In this document: positions 37,352 to 44,152 of the stretch, in pieces
How the letters are laid out: each line of letters starts with the position of its first letter
Numbering within the stretch: the stretch's first letter is position 1
From: Syntrophaceae bacterium UBA6109
GTDB taxonomy: Bacteria; Desulfobacterota; Syntrophia; Syntrophales; UBA6109
Direction of reading: 5' to 3'
NCBI GenBank assembly: GCA_002428445.1
Contig: DIWJ01000067.1
Span: 71,659 to 131,862, forward strand
DNA length: 60,204 nt
The notes under the pieces: model-generated
Told to the model about the DNA's origin: nothing
Seen by the model: the letters and a program-made list of their open reading frames with translations, nothing else
Databases searched by the model: none
Translations under genes and position numbers: made by a program

Positions 37352-38131
37352 CTAACGCTGGCAGGAAGGACAAAAATACGTTCCCCGCCCGCCGAGAGCA
37401 ATCCGTCGAACGATGCCGCCGCACCTTCGGCAAGCCTGCTCCTTCCGATCGTATACCTGCAGATGTCTCTGAAATTCTCCGCTGTCTCCGTGGAGATCGC
37501 GCCAGTCCGAAATCGATGTTCCCCGACACCTCACGGCAACCCTGAGGACTCGCGCTATCGCCTCCGCAATCCTCCGCCATGCTTGCCGGGAAACGCCTCC
37601 CGCCGCCCGGCGCGGATCGACAGCCGCCTCATAGAGGATTTCGCAGGCGTAGATATTGCCGATGCCGGCAAGGATCCGCTGATCCATCAGGAATGTCTTG
37701 ACGGGCAGGCGCCTCCCCCGTGCGGCCGCCCGCAACCCGTCGGCATCCTTCACGCAAAGCGCATCGGGAATCGCGGCTGCCACCGTTTCCTTTCGCCGGA
37801 GTTCCAGCGTCGCAAACCGGCGGGGATCGATACACAACAATTCGCCCGCAGGGAAGAAAAGACAGAAACGCGCATGCGCAGGCCGCACGCCGCTTCCTGT
37901 CCGCCACAAGAGCCGCCCCGACATCCGCAAGTGCAGCCGCAACGAAAGGTCATCGCCGATATCAATCCAAATCGCTTTTCCCTCCCTGCGGACGGCCGTG
38001 ACAGTCCTGCCATGCAGATCCGGGAGTTTCGCGATTTTTGGATCGAGCACCTCTGCATTGACGATGCGCCTTCCCTTTAAGACGCGGGAAAGCTGTCGCC
38101 GCAGGGTCTCCACTTCTGGCAGTTCGGGCAT
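37352..38131 (-). CDS. mutM: Formamidopyrimidine-DNA glycosylase MutM (Fpg)
   Basis: A 259-residue Fpg/Nei protein. It starts MPELPEVETLRR with the catalytic N-terminal Pro and Glu. The Lys (near 56, REGKAIW), the helix-two-turn-helix GIGNIYACEILYEA, and the zinc finger CRRCGGIVRR then CPSC at the C terminus are present. It excises 8-oxoguanine and cleaves the abasic site. A hotdog gene follows on the same transcript. The N-terminal PELPEVE signature leaves little doubt. Confidence 0.96.
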   Translation of the reverse strand: MPELPEVETLRRQLSRVLKGRRIVNAEVLDPKIAKLPDLHGRTVTAVRREGKAIWIDIGDDLSLRLHLRMSGRLLWRTGSGVRPAHARFCLFFPAGELLCIDPRRFATLELRRKETVAAAIPDALCVKDADGLRAAARGRRLPVKTFLMDQRILAGIGNIYACEILYEAAVDPRRAAGGVSRQAWRRIAEAIARVLRVAVRCRGTSISDWRDLHGDSGEFQRHLQVYDRKEQACRRCGGIVRRIALGGRGTYFCPSCQR

Positions 38132-38540: not shown

Positions 38541-38810
38541 GTGAAACAGAATAAAAAAGTCGAAATCAAAATCGCCGGAATCCTCATCCCCGTGGATTGG
38601 GATGAGGAGCAGCGGGTTGCCGAAGTGGCGATCGCAACGGCGGACGAAAAGGAATATCGAATCAAAAAGACCTTGAGAGGGAAACAGTTGTTCGGACACC
38701 TGCAGGCTTACGTTGAAGCGGCCGGGAGCCTTTCGGAGGGCAAAGACGGGGGATACGTCCTTACCGTAAGACGGTACGAACTCAAGCGGCCGGGAGATGC
38801 GGCGGCCTGA
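38541..38810 (+). CDS. Small hypothetical protein (89 aa)
   Basis: Not recognised. A GTG start has AAGGTG about six bases upstream. The product begins KQNKKVEIKIAGILIPVDW and contains alternating short strands and one helix (KKTLRGKQLFGHLQAYVEA), like a small beta-rich adaptor. No membrane or signal segment. It lies 124 bases before the lysine-aminomutase-like gene on the same strand, with a promoter between them, so it may be independent. Conservation is unknown. Confidence 0.65.
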   Translation: MKQNKKVEIKIAGILIPVDWDEEQRVAEVAIATADEKEYRIKKTLRGKQLFGHLQAYVEAAGSLSEGKDGGYVLTVRRYELKRPGDAAA

Positions 38811-38831
38811 TCGCATGACGTGAAAAATCGA

Positions 38832-38860
38832 TTGACACAGCGGTAGAAAAGCTGTAAACG
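38832..38860 (+). promoter_or_regulatory. Possible promoter and operator before the kamA-like gene
   Basis: A perfect TTGACA and a weak TAAACG are separated by 17 bases. Inside the spacer ACAGC and GCTGT form an inverted repeat (38837-38841 and 38851-38855), so a repressor could cover the promoter. Transcription would begin near 38868. Confidence 0.45.
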
Positions 38861-38934
38861 GGCGCGAAAAAATGCAACGAGTTCTGCAGAAGGCGGGACG
38901 GATTTCAACAAGATATCGGGAGGCATACGAACAG

Positions 38935-40242
38935 ATGGGCATCGAATCACTTCTGAATGAGGAGGCCGAACCTCCAGGTAGTATGACCGATTGCATCGGT
39001 CATGAACAGACAAATCTCTTCCCTTCCATCCATGCACCCCTTCGTGGCCCGGTCGTTCTCACCAAGCCGGTTCGGGGGGTTCCCCGGTTCCAGCACAGCG
39101 CGAGGTCTCAGGCTTGCCGCAGGCGTTATTTCCCCGAGGCGACGGAAAACGAATGGAACAACTGGCGGTGGCAGCTGCGCCACCGGATCCGCGACGTGCG
39201 GGGTCTTTCGCGGATCCTTCGTCTCTCGGAAAGCGAACTCGGCGCGTTGACCCGCCACACGGGACCGCTGCCTCTGGCCATTACACCCTATTACGCCAGT
39301 CTTCTCGATCCTGATAACCCCGCTCATTCCCTGCGGCGTGCGGTCGTCCCGACCATGGACGAATGCGTTCGCACGACCGGTGAAGAAGACGATCCTCTTG
39401 CCGAAGATCATGACAGCCCCGTGCCGGGTATTGTGCACCGCTACCCTGACCGCGTGCTGTTTCTTGTTACCGGATCCTGCTCCGCCTACTGTCGCTACTG
39501 TACGCGCTCCCGCATGGTCGGCCATCAGGGGGAATGCAGTTTCAGCATGGAGCAGTGGGAAAAGGCCATCGACTATATCGCATCGACGCCGCAGATCCGT
39601 GATGTCCTTCTTTCCGGGGGAGATCCGCTGACGCTTTCCGACGAGAAACTCGAATGGCTCCTCATGCGCCTGCATCGGATTCCTCATATCGAGATGCTGC
39701 GCATCGGGACCAAGACGCCGGCCGTTCTTCCGCAGCGGATCACGCCGGAGTTGACGCGGATGCTGAAGCGTTACCATCCCCTCTGGATCAGCATTCACGC
39801 GACCCATCCCGAGGAATTGACCGAGGAAATGGGGCAGGCCTGCGGCCGCTTGGCCGACGCCGGGATTCCGCTGGGCAGCCAGACAGTGCTCTTGGCCGGG
39901 ATCAACGACCAGATTGAGACGATGCGGCGGCTCGTTCACGGGCTGCTGAAGATCCGCGTGAAACCCTACTATCTCTACCAGTGCGATCCCATCCCCGGGT
40001 CTTCCCACTTTCGCACACCCGTATCCAAGGGACTGGAAATCATCGCGGGATTGAGAGGCCACACCACCGGGTACGCGGTGCCTTCTTACGTCATCGACGC
40101 ACCCGGTGGCGGCGGGAAGATTCCGCTGCTGCCGGAATATGTGATCGGCAAAGACGGCAACGACCTGCTGCTCCGCAATTACGAGGGACAGACCTTTCGG
40201 TATCCGGACAGACCGGAAGGAACCGCCGCCGCCATACACTGA
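38935..40242 (+). CDS. kamA: Lysine 2,3-aminomutase-like radical SAM enzyme (KamA family)
   Basis: About 435 residues. The radical SAM motif is CSAYCRYC, with Cys near 182, 186 and 189 of this start. NEWNNWRWQLRHRI matches the start of clostridial lysine 2,3-aminomutase. The two Asp that hold the lysine side-chain amine in that enzyme (Asp293 and Asp330) are conserved in QCDPIPG and VIDAPGGGGK, 37 residues apart as there, and the PLP Lys follows in GGGGKIP. So it should make beta-lysine from lysine. The start is uncertain: ATG 38935 has GGGAGG 11 bases upstream, but ATG 38983 is the latest possible and either leaves a 45-60 residue N-terminal extension without family match. It heads the ATP-grasp/GNAT operon. 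Confidence 0.87.
   Translation: MGIESLLNEEAEPPGSMTDCIGHEQTNLFPSIHAPLRGPVVLTKPVRGVPRFQHSARSQACRRRYFPEATENEWNNWRWQLRHRIRDVRGLSRILRLSESELGALTRHTGPLPLAITPYYASLLDPDNPAHSLRRAVVPTMDECVRTTGEEDDPLAEDHDSPVPGIVHRYPDRVLFLVTGSCSAYCRYCTRSRMVGHQGECSFSMEQWEKAIDYIASTPQIRDVLLSGGDPLTLSDEKLEWLLMRLHRIPHIEMLRIGTKTPAVLPQRITPELTRMLKRYHPLWISIHATHPEELTEEMGQACGRLADAGIPLGSQTVLLAGINDQIETMRRLVHGLLKIRVKPYYLYQCDPIPGSSHFRTPVSKGLEIIAGLRGHTTGYAVPSYVIDAPGGGGKIPLLPEYVIGKDGNDLLLRNYEGQTFRYPDRPEGTAAAIH
38961..39003 (+). promoter_or_regulatory. Hairpins and palindrome at the kamA-like gene start
   Basis: GGAGG and CCTCC (38961-38975) form a 5-bp hairpin, and ATGACCGAT-TGC-ATCGGTCAT (38983-39003) is a perfect 9-3-9 inverted repeat that includes the alternative ATG at 38983. 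If that ATG is used, both may be control elements over the ribosome site; if 38935 is used, they lie in the coding extension. Confidence 0.35.
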
Positions 40243-40297
40243 GCCGGAGAAGCCGCTCCATTCCGAGTGGGGAAATCGCATCGCGGGGCATTTTGCA

Positions 40298-41299
40298 TTG
40301 AAGATCGGGCTCACCTATGACCTCAGGTCGGATTATCTCGCCGAAGGTTACGGCGAAGAAGAAACGGCGGAATTTGACCGTCCGGACACGATCGATGCGG
40401 TCGACGGAACCCTGTGCTCTTTGGGATACTGTACCGACCGCATCGGTCACATCCGCCGCCTCACGGAACGACTGGCAGCCGGCGATCGCTGGGATCTGGT
40501 CTTCAATATCGCTGAAGGTCTTCACGGTTTCGGGAGAGAAGGCCAGATTCCTGCCCTGCTTGATGCCTACGAGATTCCCTACACTTTCTCCGATCCGCTC
40601 GTTTCTTCCTTAACGCTGCACAAGGGGATGACAAAGCACGTCATCCGGGACCTTGGCATCCCCACCCCCGATTTCGCCATTGTCGAAACCGAAAGCGACC
40701 TTGCGACGATCACCCTGCCGATGCCTCTGTTCGTCAAGCCTGTCGCTGAAGGAACCGGCAAGGGAATTAATGCCGCTTCGAAGATCATCTCTCTGTCCCA
40801 ACTGAGGGATATCGTCCCGAAGCTCCTGCACACCTACCGTCAACCGGTCCTCGTGGAATGCTTTCTTCCCGGCCGCGAATTCACCGTCGGCATCGTCGGC
40901 ACCGCTGGAGAAGCCGAGGCCCTCGGAACCATCGAGGTCCATCTGAAGTCGGGGGCGGAACACGATGTCTATTCCTATGTCAACAAGGAACGCTGCGAAG
41001 AACTGGTGGAATACCGTCTTGTGGAGGGCGCAGTCGCGCAGGACGCCGCTCGGACGGCGCTTGCTGCGTGGAGGGGATTGGGCTGCCGGGACGCGGGGAG
41101 AGTCGATCTTCGCACCGATGAGCGGGGAGTCCTGCACTTCCTGGAGGTCAATCCGCTGGCGGGGATTCATCCGCAGCACTCCGATCTCCCCATTTTGTGC
41201 ACCCTCAGGGGCATCCCCTACCGGGACCTGATCTCCCGGATCATGGAATCGGCGATGAAAAGAATCCCGGAAGACCGCCGTCGAAAAGAGAAACGATGA
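40298..41299 (+). CDS. ATP-grasp ligase, D-Ala-D-Ala-ligase-like (1)
   Basis: A 333-residue ATP-grasp protein that starts with TTG. The N-terminal domain (GLTYDLRSDYLAEGYG) is followed by a DLVFNIAEG loop, the ATP-binding PLFVKPVAEGTGKGI near residue 147, VECFLPGREFTVGIVG, and FLEVNPLAGIHPQH with metal-binding Glu and Asn. ATP-grasp ligases of this group join a carboxyl group to an amine or thiol through an acyl-phosphate. It lies 55 bases after the kamA-like gene and overlaps the next ligase gene by four bases. It is unlikely to be a cell-wall D-Ala ligase because its partner genes are a lysine mutase and an acetyltransferase. Confidence 0.85.
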   Translation: MKIGLTYDLRSDYLAEGYGEEETAEFDRPDTIDAVDGTLCSLGYCTDRIGHIRRLTERLAAGDRWDLVFNIAEGLHGFGREGQIPALLDAYEIPYTFSDPLVSSLTLHKGMTKHVIRDLGIPTPDFAIVETESDLATITLPMPLFVKPVAEGTGKGINAASKIISLSQLRDIVPKLLHTYRQPVLVECFLPGREFTVGIVGTAGEAEALGTIEVHLKSGAEHDVYSYVNKERCEELVEYRLVEGAVAQDAARTALAAWRGLGCRDAGRVDLRTDERGVLHFLEVNPLAGIHPQHSDLPILCTLRGIPYRDLISRIMESAMKRIPEDRRRKEKR

Positions 41300-42249
41300 A
41301 AATCATCATCCTCCACGGCCAGCTGCCCCCGGACGCGGGTCCCGACGAACAGGACGTCCTTGTTCAGCTCGATTCCATCTCGGCCGCATTGCGCGAACTC
41401 GGCCACGAGGCGGCTCCTCTCCCCCTTTCCCTGAACCTGCAGGCGGCAAGAGAAGACCTCCTCCGTCTGAAGCCCGATTTGGTCTTCAACCTGGTGGAAT
41501 CGGTCAACGGCAGCGGACGCATGATTTCCCTGGGTCCTCTACTGCTGGAAGAACTGGACCTTCCTTATACGGGTGCGAAAGCCGATGCGATTTTCTTCAC
41601 GTCCAACAAGATTCTCACCAAGAGAATGCTGGCCAAGGAAGGCGTGCCCACGGCGCCGTGGCTAGAATCCGGTGACGATCTTCGACACATCGGGCCGAAG
41701 GACCGTTACCTGATCAAATCGGTATGGGAACACGCCTCCTGCGGATTGGCGGATGACGCGCTCATCGAGGGGAATCCGGACCTGATCCGCGAACGGCTGA
41801 AACGATCGTCCTGTTTCGCCGAAGCCTACATCGAGGGGCGTGAGTTTAATCTGGCCATTCTGGCCGGTCCGGGCGGACCGGAATTCCTGCCGCCCTCCGA
41901 GATCCTTTTCGAGGATTACCCGCCCGAGAAGCTTCGCATCGTCTGCTATCGGGCAAAATGGATCGAAGATTCATTCGAGTACGGCCACACACCGCGGACA
42001 TTCAAGTTCAGGAAGAAGGATCATGCCCTGCTGTCTCATATGAAGGAACTGGCCCTGCACTGCTGGAACGCCTTCCATCTCACCGGTTACGCCCGGGTTG
42101 ATTTTCGTGTGGACCAATCCGGAAAACCCTGGGTCCTGGAAATCAACGCCAATCCCTGCCTGTCCCCCGACGGAGGGTTCGCCGCCGCCGCGCGCCATTC
42201 GGGTCTTTCCTATCGCGAGGTCGTCCGCCGGCTTGTGGAGGATGCATGA
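41296..42249 (+). CDS. ATP-grasp ligase, D-Ala-D-Ala-ligase-like (2)
   Basis: A 317-residue second ATP-grasp enzyme, clearly distinct from the first. It starts MKIIILHGQLPP, has DLVFNLVESVNG, the ATP-binding region YLIKSVWEHASCGL near residue 137, FAEAYIEGREFNLAILAG, and the metal-binding RVDFRVD and EINANPCL. The ATG overlaps the first ligase stop in an ATGA, so translation is coupled. Two ATP-grasp ligases in one operon suggest two ligation steps, such as amide bonds to two different acceptors. Substrates are unknown. Confidence 0.85.
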   Translation: MKIIILHGQLPPDAGPDEQDVLVQLDSISAALRELGHEAAPLPLSLNLQAAREDLLRLKPDLVFNLVESVNGSGRMISLGPLLLEELDLPYTGAKADAIFFTSNKILTKRMLAKEGVPTAPWLESGDDLRHIGPKDRYLIKSVWEHASCGLADDALIEGNPDLIRERLKRSSCFAEAYIEGREFNLAILAGPGGPEFLPPSEILFEDYPPEKLRIVCYRAKWIEDSFEYGHTPRTFKFRKKDHALLSHMKELALHCWNAFHLTGYARVDFRVDQSGKPWVLEINANPCLSPDGGFAAAARHSGLSYREVVRRLVEDA

Positions 42250-42752
42250 GGCCTTTATCTCCGCTGCGGGGGGTAACCTATCGATCGACACCCCGTCCGT
42301 CAGACCGCGGAGAGATTCGCCGCATGGTCGCGGGCACGGGTTTCTTTTCGCCGGCGGAGGTCGATATTGCCGTGGAACTGGTCGACGACCGCCTTTCCCG
42401 CGGCGGCAAGAGCGACTATCGATTTCTCCTCGCGGAGCGGAAAGGCGCCCTGATTGCCTACACCTGCTTCGGTGCGATTGACGGCACACTGAACAGCTAC
42501 GATCTCTACTGGATCGTGGTGCGGGACGATCTTCGCAAAATGGGGATCGGCCGCGAGCTCATGAGGCGGACCGAGGACCGGATCCTGCGCAGCAGAGGCG
42601 GCCGGGTGTACGTCGACACTTCTTCACGGGACCAGTACGCCCCGACCCGCGCCTTCTACATGCGTTGCGGCTATCGCCAGGCCGCCGTCCTCCCTGATTT
42701 CTATGCACCCGGGGACGGCAAAATCATTTACGAAAAGACTTTCGATCCATAA
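42246..42752 (+). CDS. GNAT family N-acetyltransferase at the end of the kamA-like operon
   Basis: A 168-residue acetyltransferase. Motif A is DLRKMGIGRELMRR near residue 97, with GGRVYVDTSSRDQYAPTRAF and YMRCGYRQ in the second half. The start overlaps the preceding stop (ATGA). A GNAT enzyme next to a lysine 2,3-aminomutase recalls the AblA-AblB pair that makes the osmolyte N-epsilon-acetyl-beta-lysine in archaea and some bacteria; here the two ATP-grasp genes between them mean the product is probably more elaborate. It could acetylate beta-lysine or the ligation product. Confidence 0.85.
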   Translation: MRPLSPLRGVTYRSTPRPSDRGEIRRMVAGTGFFSPAEVDIAVELVDDRLSRGGKSDYRFLLAERKGALIAYTCFGAIDGTLNSYDLYWIVVRDDLRKMGIGRELMRRTEDRILRSRGGRVYVDTSSRDQYAPTRAFYMRCGYRQAAVLPDFYAPGDGKIIYEKTFDP

Positions 42753-42865
42753 CCTCTTGCCTTTTGAAATGGATTTCGATAGAGAGCGCGCGACATCCGG
42801 CGCCGCGCGGGAGTGTTCCCGCGCCCCCAGTTGTACCCGCCCCGTTGCCAGACATCGAATCTCCC

Positions 42866-43087
42866 CAGGCGGCAGTTTCACCGGCCGCCTGTTTCATCGG
42901 GGCATCGGTCGCCGGCATCCCCGTGAGCACCACCCATACGATCACCGGCGCCATTGTGGTAGTGGGGCAACGACCAGACTGACGGCCGTGCGCTGGGGCG
43001 TGGCAGGCAGCATCGCCTGGGCGTGGTTTCTGACGATTCCCGCATCCGCGCTGATCTCAGCGGCGTTCTATGCGCGCCGCCGCCTGT
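42866..43087 (+). pseudogene. Frameshifted C-terminal remnant of a PiT-type phosphate permease
   Basis: In one frame the sequence reads FIGASVAGIPVSTTHTITGA, the strongly conserved PiT signature near the C terminus. After a one-base shift in the G-rich stretch near 42964, the other frame continues RLTAVRWGVAGSIAWAWFLT then IPASALISAAFY, the expected next piece. The N-terminal three-quarters of the permease is missing and there is no start. This is a decayed gene, or the end point of a rearrangement beside the kamA-like operon. Confidence 0.8.
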
Positions 43088-44152
43088 TTATCCGCCGCTT
43101 GATTCATCCCCGCGGACAATCTCATCGTACATCTCCCAAACCGTGATGAGCAGGGCGGTGATGATGGGTCCCAGAACGAATCCCGAAATGCCGAACAGCG
43201 AGATGCCGCCCAGCGTGGAGAGAAAGATGAGCAGCGGATGCAGCTGCACGTCTTTTCCGAGCAGCAGCGGACGCAGCAGGTTGTCGGCCATGCTGATGAT
43301 AGCGACGCCGTAGGCCAGAACGGCAACGCCTTCCCAGAGCGCCCCGGAAAGGATCAAAAGAATGCCGGCGGGCGCCCAGACGATCGAACATCCTACGGCG
43401 GGCACGATCGAAGTGAAGATCATGATCACCCCCCAGAGCAATGCCCCCTTGATGCCCGTCGCGAAAAAAATGATACTGCCGAGAATGCCCTGAATACCCC
43501 CGATGAGAAGCGTGACCTTGATTGTTGCCCGCGCCGTCGCGGCAAACCGCTGGTAGAGGGCCTTCTCCCGCCCATCGCCCAATGGGACCAGACGCATGAG
43601 CATGGCCAGGAACGTGTCCCCATCGCGCAGAAAAAAGAACAGGGTATAGAGCATCACGGCGAACTGGACCAGAAACAGGAGCGTGTTCTGCGTCAGGGAG
43701 CGGAGCTGATCAAGAAAGAAACCGGCGATTCCCTTGTAGACCTCCGCGAAGCGCTCGCTCCAGGCTCCCGACGGAATCGGGAGCCGCTCGTAAAAGGGCA
43801 GGCTCTCCAGAAAATCCTGCAGGCTCTGCATGCCGTTCCGGAGCTGCGCCCCGCCCGAACTGCTGATCGCGTCGTACAGTTGCATCGATTCGGCGACCAG
43901 CAGGGTCCCGACGACTGCCGCCGGGATGAAGATCAGGACGATGACCAGCGCGAGCGTCACGGCGGCGGCGGAGGAACGCCTCCTGAGCCGGACCTCGATC
44001 CGCAGGAAAATCGGCCGGAAAATCGCCGCGATCACCGCCGCCCAGAAGATCGGGAAGAAGAAGGACTTCAGAAGCAACAAGAAGAGCAGCGTCACGCCGA
44101 TCAGCAACGCGAAAAATACGATCTCCCTGTTTTTTGTCTTGCCCTGCTTCAT
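43088..44152 (-). CDS. AI-2E family transporter (PerM-like permease)
   Basis: A 354-residue membrane protein with seven to eight helices and family pieces such as FFFPIFWAAVIAAIFRPIF, VQFAVMLYTLFFFLRDGD, IGGIQGILGSIIFFATG and GISGFVLGPIITAL. The family includes autoinducer-2 exporters and sodium/proton antiporters and has no agreed general substrate. The start at 44152 is chosen over GTG 44224 because it gives the normal short cytoplasmic N terminus. It is convergent with the pseudogene. Confidence 0.87.
   Translation of the reverse strand: MKQGKTKNREIVFFALLIGVTLLFLLLLKSFFFPIFWAAVIAAIFRPIFLRIEVRLRRRSSAAAVTLALVIVLIFIPAAVVGTLLVAESMQLYDAISSSGGAQLRNGMQSLQDFLESLPFYERLPIPSGAWSERFAEVYKGIAGFFLDQLRSLTQNTLLFLVQFAVMLYTLFFFLRDGDTFLAMLMRLVPLGDGREKALYQRFAATARATIKVTLLIGGIQGILGSIIFFATGIKGALLWGVIMIFTSIVPAVGCSIVWAPAGILLILSGALWEGVAVLAYGVAIISMADNLLRPLLLGKDVQLHPLLIFLSTLGGISLFGISGFVLGPIITALLITVWEMYDEIVRGDESSGG

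Follow-up and report, generated by a model that had tools for sequence, protein, structure and literature searches.

We have analysed a stretch of 60,204 nucleotides of contig DIWJ01000067.1 (assembly GCA_002428445.1, Syntrophaceae bacterium UBA6109), from here on the window, that contains a run of five genes on the plus strand: a small open reading frame (ORF), a gene for a KamA-type lysine 2,3-aminomutase, genes for a first and a second ATP-grasp ligase (AG1 and AG2) and a gene for a GNAT acetyltransferase (Table 1). The last four, together with their counterparts in other genomes, are referred to as the cassette. Pfam identified Radical_SAM and LAM_C in KamA, Dala_Dala_lig_C in both ligases and Acetyltransf_1 in the GNAT, so that the four enzymes reported in a preliminary description of this DNA are all present, in the order and on the strand given there. 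The product of the small ORF, on the other hand, matched no family in Pfam or NCBIfam. ATGA overlaps join AG1 to AG2 (41296-41299) and AG2 to the GNAT (42246-42249), as had been described, with the correction that AG1 itself starts at a TTG, 55 bases past the end of KamA. The gap ahead of the KamA ORF is 61 bases long.

Table 1. Genes of the cassette region and their coordinates in the window.
Feature	Position	Strand	Basis or remark
Small ORF, 89 amino acids, GTG start	38541..38810	+	Optional companion; relatives near AG1 in part of the loci
KamA-type lysine 2,3-aminomutase	38935..40242 (preferred start; the ORF reaches up to ATG 38872, 456 amino acids)	+	Pfam; residues; start from relatives and GGGAGG
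AG1, Ddl-type ATP-grasp amide ligase, TTG start	40298..41299	+	Family match
AG2, second, divergent Ddl-type ATP-grasp ligase, Cys at the Ddl oxyanion-hole Gly	41296..42249	+	Family match, structure model, alignment
GNAT N-acetyltransferase	42246..42752	+	Pfam; nearest solved relative 2R7H, a structure of unknown function

Several relatives of KamA start at the equivalent of residue 22 of the window protein (MENETLFTEEAEPPG in L001; labels beginning with L denote AG1-centred loci and those beginning with G genomes that carry the cassette), and a GGGAGG ends 11 bases upstream of ATG 38935, for which reasons this codon is probably the start rather than ATG 38872. Some of the N-terminal extension pointed out previously is thus kept, but it is shorter than first read. 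The motif EPP was found in 16 of 19 aligned KamAs (of the three exceptions, L013 entered the alignment cut at its start). LAM_C is matched only over positions 1-56 of its 127, which suggests that the protein lacks the C-terminal part of the clostridial enzyme. Over residues 84-446 the protein aligns with 2A5H and keeps Cys 203, 207 and 210, Arg212, Asp372, Asp409 and Lys416 (numbering of the 456-residue form), the last three being Asp293, Asp330 and Lys337 in clostridial numbering. We take the three cysteines to hold the cluster, the arginine to contact the carboxylate, the two aspartates to bind the substrate and the lysine to carry pyridoxal phosphate (PLP). The alignment bears out the earlier statement that the CxxxCxxC motif, the PLP lysine and both substrate aspartates of the clostridial mutase are conserved, and the Asp/Asp/Lys set is present in 18/18 cassette KamA rows and in 27/27 more distant cassette-linked ones. 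A lysine-type aminomutase is therefore the assignment that these residues support, without being proof of it.

Both ligases have dipeptide ligases of the Ddl family as their best matches and share with that family the fold and the ATP site; the structure model of AG2 (mean predicted local distance difference test score, pLDDT, of 92) has DdlA as best match, with a template modelling (TM) score of 0.77. The Asp, Glu and Asn at the ATP/Mg positions are invariant in 16/16 AG1 and 26/26 AG2 sequences. AG1 keeps, in addition, the acceptor Arg, oxyanion Gly and acceptor Ser positions of Ddl in all 16, while in AG2 a cysteine replaces the oxyanion Gly in 26/26 and the Ser/Leu pair has changed to Ala, Ser or Gly and to Gly; we assume that these positions have the same roles as their equivalents in Ddl. 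Acceptor residues kept in one ligase and altered in the other point to AG1 probably using an amino acid as acceptor and AG2 something different.

The window GNAT was modelled with a mean pLDDT of 95 and resembles 2R7H, the structure of Desulfovibrio desulfuricans DDE_3044 titled putative acetyltransferase (40% identity, TM score 0.91). Some cassettes have a fifth gene, located between AG2 and the GNAT or after the GNAT, that codes for a protein of ca. 590 amino acids with a weak N-terminal GNAT match followed by a histone-deacetylase domain (GNAT-HDAC). By sequence this domain is closest to the acetylpolyamine amidohydrolase 6PHR (E 1e-70), and the residues expected to bind zinc and to catalyze the reaction, roles that we presume from the deacetylase family, are invariant in 11/11 sequences. 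The presence in some cassettes of a deacetylase fused to a second GNAT suggests that acetylation may be reversible or serve for protection.

The association of these genes was examined starting from AG1, which returned at least 563 relatives among 583 pattern matches, the best 80 being kept as a first set of loci. Profiles built on curated alignments served to count the neighbors that share the strand of AG1 and lie within 6 kb of it, over 159 loci in all, assigned to phyla as named in their database records. Among the best 80 loci we found KamA in 77, AG2 in 75, GNAT in 59, the small ORF in 19 and GNAT-HDAC in 18 (including a short fragment in L061); a tblastn count of the same loci gave KamA in 77/80 and GNAT in 59/80, but AG2 in 29/80. 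Two of the three loci without KamA (L042 and L072) reach the contig end 1.1 kb upstream, and the other, L024, has 10 kb of sequence on each side. GNAT was missing from 21 of the 80, 13 of which have less than 1.5 kb of sequence after AG1. In a wider survey AG1 was matched in 81/247 genomes of the phylum of the L001 genome (Desulfobacterota draw, 1e-60) and in 19/200, 24/149 and 33/148 genomes of three other phyla (1e-50). Twenty loci sampled from the 43 of the Desulfobacterota top tier (at least 423 bits) contained KamA in 20, AG2 in 19, GNAT in 17 and GNAT-HDAC in 8, and 20 sampled from the 39 of the lower tier contained KamA in 15, AG2 in 14 and GNAT in 11. Elsewhere KamA was near AG1 in 10/11 alphaproteobacterial loci (sampled from 19 matches), 8/9 of Bacteroidota (from 33) and 14/19 of Planctomycetota (from 25). 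Overall, 144 of the 159 loci have KamA near AG1. There were no near-copies among loci of different sets (L004 and L033, 95% identical over 2.1 kb, both belong to the first), so that the pairing can hardly be due to chance.

The co-occurrence in other genomes that had been proposed as a check was therefore found. A restriction to Desulfobacterota was not, since the cassette is also present in loci whose records name Calditrichota, Bacteroidetes, Planctomycetes (Rhodopirellula, Thermoguttaceae), Alphaproteobacteria and Acidobacteria. In one family, that of the L006 genome, AG1 was detected in 20 of 21 genomes, which suggests that the cassette has a core function there rather than being an accessory natural product pathway. 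Several of the genes are moreover fused in one frame: AG2 with GNAT in L118 (by Pfam) and in L116 and L123 (by profile), HDAC with GNAT in L048 and L101 (by Pfam, preceded by an N-terminal part that resembles the one in GNAT-HDAC) and in L119 (by profile), and KamA with an ATP-grasp domain in L045 (by Pfam).

Taken together, we favor, somewhat above even chances, the view that these genes form an operon for the synthesis of a small conjugate of beta-lysine, an amide or a peptide, that is acetylated. Judging from its residues, KamA would convert L-lysine to beta-lysine. AG1 and AG2, going by the mechanism of their family, would form two ATP-driven amide bonds via acyl phosphates and so couple beta-lysine with one or two additional partners, either amino acids or amines. 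The GNAT would acetylate an amine of the AG2 product, a hand-over that the AG2-GNAT fusions support, and in part of the cassettes GNAT-HDAC would add an acetyl group to, or remove it from, a terminal amine, for example the epsilon-amine of beta-lysine. The product would most likely be a soluble intracellular metabolite. That it protects against stress as a solute, like N-epsilon-acetyl-beta-lysine or N-acetylglutaminylglutamine amide, is a guess by analogy to which we give clearly less than an even chance. The beta-lysine conjugate suggested in the preliminary description has thus been supported in part, through the linkage of genes for a lysine-type aminomutase, a pair of ATP-grasp ligases and a GNAT.

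Several observations weigh against this interpretation. The linkage was seen from the AG1 side only, as the loci were picked by AG1, which is present in them by choice. The Asp/Asp/Lys set is not specific, since 7 of 10 further KamA paralogs examined from the same genomes have it too (only L197, K/T; L199, E/A; and L206, D/E, differ). Eight of the loci without GNAT have more sequence after AG1 (L001, L003, L008, L029, L042, L045, L058 and L062). Neither AG2 nor GNAT was detected in 4/9 Bacteroidota and 5/11 alphaproteobacterial loci with AG1 and KamA (one of the latter five is truncated at the end of its contig), and the pathway may thus differ in its number of steps. Conversely, AG1 and AG2 are kept without KamA within 6 kb in L024, L148 and L149, and beta-lysine is perhaps not obligatory for the ligases. 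A strong deacetylase match (>500 bits) was obtained in only 15 of 36 genomes searched; 14 of these matches cover the whole model and that of G027 only positions 234-574, and 12 lie inside the cassette and three elsewhere (genomes of L010, L024 and L032). The fifth gene is, therefore, optional. Finally, some locus records name lake, fen or groundwater as the source, so there is no argument here for an osmolyte driven by salt.

Beta-lysine has two well-known uses in bacteria, as an osmolyte and in elongation factor P (EF-P). The ordinary AblA/AblB pathway to N-epsilon-acetyl-beta-lysine, with the ligases as unrelated neighbors, has in its favor that it also consists of a lysine 2,3-aminomutase and a GNAT acetyltransferase, and that KamA is close to a GNAT in the cassette. 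AblAB is annotated in Pelobacter carbinolicus (Pcar_1401/1402; PMC3543383), and ablA is described as clustered with ablB in Syntrophus aciditrophicus (PMC2821294), where the gene called ablB may be the cassette GNAT. However, the cassette adds two ATP-grasp ligases, which occur together, with KamA in most cases, in nearly all of the best 80 loci, and sometimes a deacetylase. The window GNAT had no match to the AblB model TIGR03827 at E values up to 0.1, and AblB was found in 1/32 cassette genomes, away from the cassette and next to an AblA of its own, and in 0/21 genomes of the L006 family. KamA scored 494.7 bits with the AblA model TIGR03820, under the cut-off of 525.4, and none of the cassette KamAs in the 32 genomes passed it (a separate AblA over the cut-off exists in two). 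In a tree of 58 KamA rows, which has no outgroup root, the cassette KamAs fall in a group of 22 rows (18 from cassettes and four alphaproteobacterial cassette-linked ones; support 100/99), and the three Abl rows in a separate one (95/90). Model scores, genome counts and the tree lead us to reject the osmolyte pathway AblAB, as the preliminary description had anticipated; it is already largely refuted and we consider it very improbable. EF-P modification resembles the cassette in another way, since in the EpmB/EpmA system an enzyme of the KamA family supplies beta-lysine and an amide bond follows (see also PMC2821294). The cassette differs from it in using ATP-grasp ligases in place of a ligase like lysyl-tRNA synthetase, and KamA (257.6 bits) is below the cut-off of the EpmB model TIGR03821 (369.3). 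Moreover, 30 of the 32 genomes contain efp, but none has it within 6 kb of the cassette, and 11 of them (G001, G004, G007, G009, G014, G019, G020, G029, G032, G033 and G034) have another KamA-type gene next to efp; modification of EF-P was accordingly rejected. We consider it quite unlikely, if less so than the AblA/AblB pathway, that beta-lysine is put on some other protein or ribosomal peptide in the manner of EF-P, whose beta-lysylation is the precedent (PMC2821294). The small-ORF product could be such an acceptor, and AG2 has weak matches to the TTL and RimK models. Against it, the best matches of the ligases are dipeptide ligases, and the small-ORF family has extra copies away from the cassette in L017, L050 and L061. 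As an obligatory tag acceptor the small ORF is unsupported, given its presence in under a quarter of the best 80 loci and its lack of a family.

The database names of AG1 relatives, D-alanine--D-alanine ligase, would make AG1 and AG2 cell-wall enzymes, and the family, the fold and, in AG1, the acceptor Ser and Gly positions agree with them. But both ligases are far below the cut-off of the Ddl model TIGR01205 (AG1 125.5 and AG2 78.9 bits vs. 245.65), their gene context is another one, the AG2 pocket is altered, and 28/32 cassette genomes have a Ddl over the cut-off at another place. The remaining four have none, and in two of them (G008 and G015) nothing but the cassette pair was matched at 1e-20; these genomes are perhaps incomplete. 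The cell-wall role was thus rejected for most genomes and is the least probable of all the explanations considered, and the ligases are very probably distinct from D-alanine ligases, as previously supposed. The pathway of N-acetylglutaminylglutamine amide consists of a GNAT/ATP-grasp enzyme and an amidotransferase like asparagine synthase. Here too a GNAT and an ATP-grasp peptide ligase would cooperate, and in some cassette loci they are fused. The cassette differs by KamA and the second ligase, and no Asn_synthase gene (PF00733) was within 6 kb of it in any of the 32 genomes, though 20 of them have one, which led us to reject this pathway as well. The alternative that retains most weight, while still unlikely, is a polyamine acceptor, with an acetylated beta-lysyl (or aminoacyl) polyamine as the product in place of an amino-acid peptide. 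In four of the 20 lower-tier loci (L099, L100, L102 and L103) AG1 and AG2 are without KamA and beside a pyruvoyl arginine decarboxylase (named by a model in L103, the other three copies being 68-82% identical to it), which is consistent with an alternative diamine substrate. Three of these four loci contain agmatinase, and L099, L102 and L103 genes like deoxyhypusine synthase. In L021 a full cassette with KamA is followed directly by agmatinase, the deacetylase is related to acetylpolyamine amidohydrolase, and the altered acceptor pocket of AG2 would also fit. However, the four loci without KamA are those of distant AG1 paralogs (205-235 bits), and among the best 80 loci agmatinase was within 6 kb in one and arginine decarboxylase in none.

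The relatives without KamA suggest that the two ligases form a module whose amine supplier can be exchanged. In two Planctomycetota-type genomes a class-V aminotransferase gene is located upstream of AG1, at the usual place of KamA (L148, 7045-8229, minus strand; L149, 4738-5928, plus strand). A RimK-like third ATP-grasp gene is common to a cassette with KamA (L089, 2088-3050, minus strand) and a polyamine-type locus (L102, 5057-5983, plus strand). Other cassette-linked KamAs, including those of Bacteroidota and Planctomycetota placed after the GNAT, are found elsewhere in the unrooted tree, suggesting that KamA may have been recruited into the cassette more than once.

Other genes recur around the cassette. 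Right after it we found PhoU_div (DUF47) in 17/80 and PHO4 in 16/80 loci (L001, L002, L006, L015, L029 and others), possibly only through shared ancestry of the region. At the same position the window contains, on the plus strand (42854-43104), traces of a decayed PHO4-type phosphate transporter gene, spread over two frames, with blocks 55-76% identical to relatives. On the other side of the cassette there is a divergent gene (37352-38131, minus strand) that by eye codes for a formamidopyrimidine-DNA glycosylase, and a gene of this family is upstream in other loci too (by Pfam for L001). A family of sigma-54 response regulators appeared at varying places in 14 of 81 clustered loci. A small membrane protein of the DMT_6 type (DUF486) is encoded between AG2 and GNAT in L020 (12030-12377), L025 (4159-4506) and L037 (8258-8605) and could be a transporter, exporter or importer, of the product. 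Like PhoU_div and PHO4, neither of these two families is a general neighbor. A PLP decarboxylase family was near the cassette in nine loci, including L037 (10961-12226), whose member is near LysA (287.2 bits vs. a cut-off of 297.9; that of L021 reached 149.6); a lysine supply is possible. Short proteins near AG1 in three alphaproteobacterial loci have the stretch RVGTFFVATRADW in common (L127, 5295-5579, minus strand; L130, 5330-5599, minus strand; L132, 7371-7658, plus strand). The palindrome at 38983-39003, listed in the preliminary description as an oddity, turned out to be ordinary for the window, where a scan for perfect 9-base arms with loops of 0-6 gave 14 entries, some being one and the same repeat at shifted positions, and it was discarded as a regulatory element.

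Targeted full-text literature searches, with most subscription papers outside their coverage, returned no description of the combination of KamA, two ATP-grasp ligases and GNAT. Searches for passages within PMC8939145, PMC4431377 and PMC5686539 gave no aminomutase, and in PMC12855168 only an unrelated one. The known subjects that the cassette touches are the non-ribosomal peptide pathways of ATP-grasp enzymes and the metabolism of beta-lysine. It is about an even bet that it represents a third widespread route for beta-lysine. In this view two ATP-grasp ligases form a modular system that produces a previously unseen class of beta-lysyl (or polyamine) amides whose acetylation is reversible. The system would be nearly universal in at least one family, to which a Syntrophus-titled genome belongs, and spread over several phyla, and its amine would be supplied either by KamA or by arginine decarboxylase, possibly also by a class-V aminotransferase. 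If this is true, the wrong database name D-alanine--D-alanine ligase would be replaced for the AG1 relatives, the family of the orphan crystal structure 2R7H would gain a context, and there would be a case of an enzyme of the histone-deacetylase type working with acetyltransferases on a small molecule. Many environmental bacteria would then be making from beta-lysine a metabolite for which our searches gave no description.

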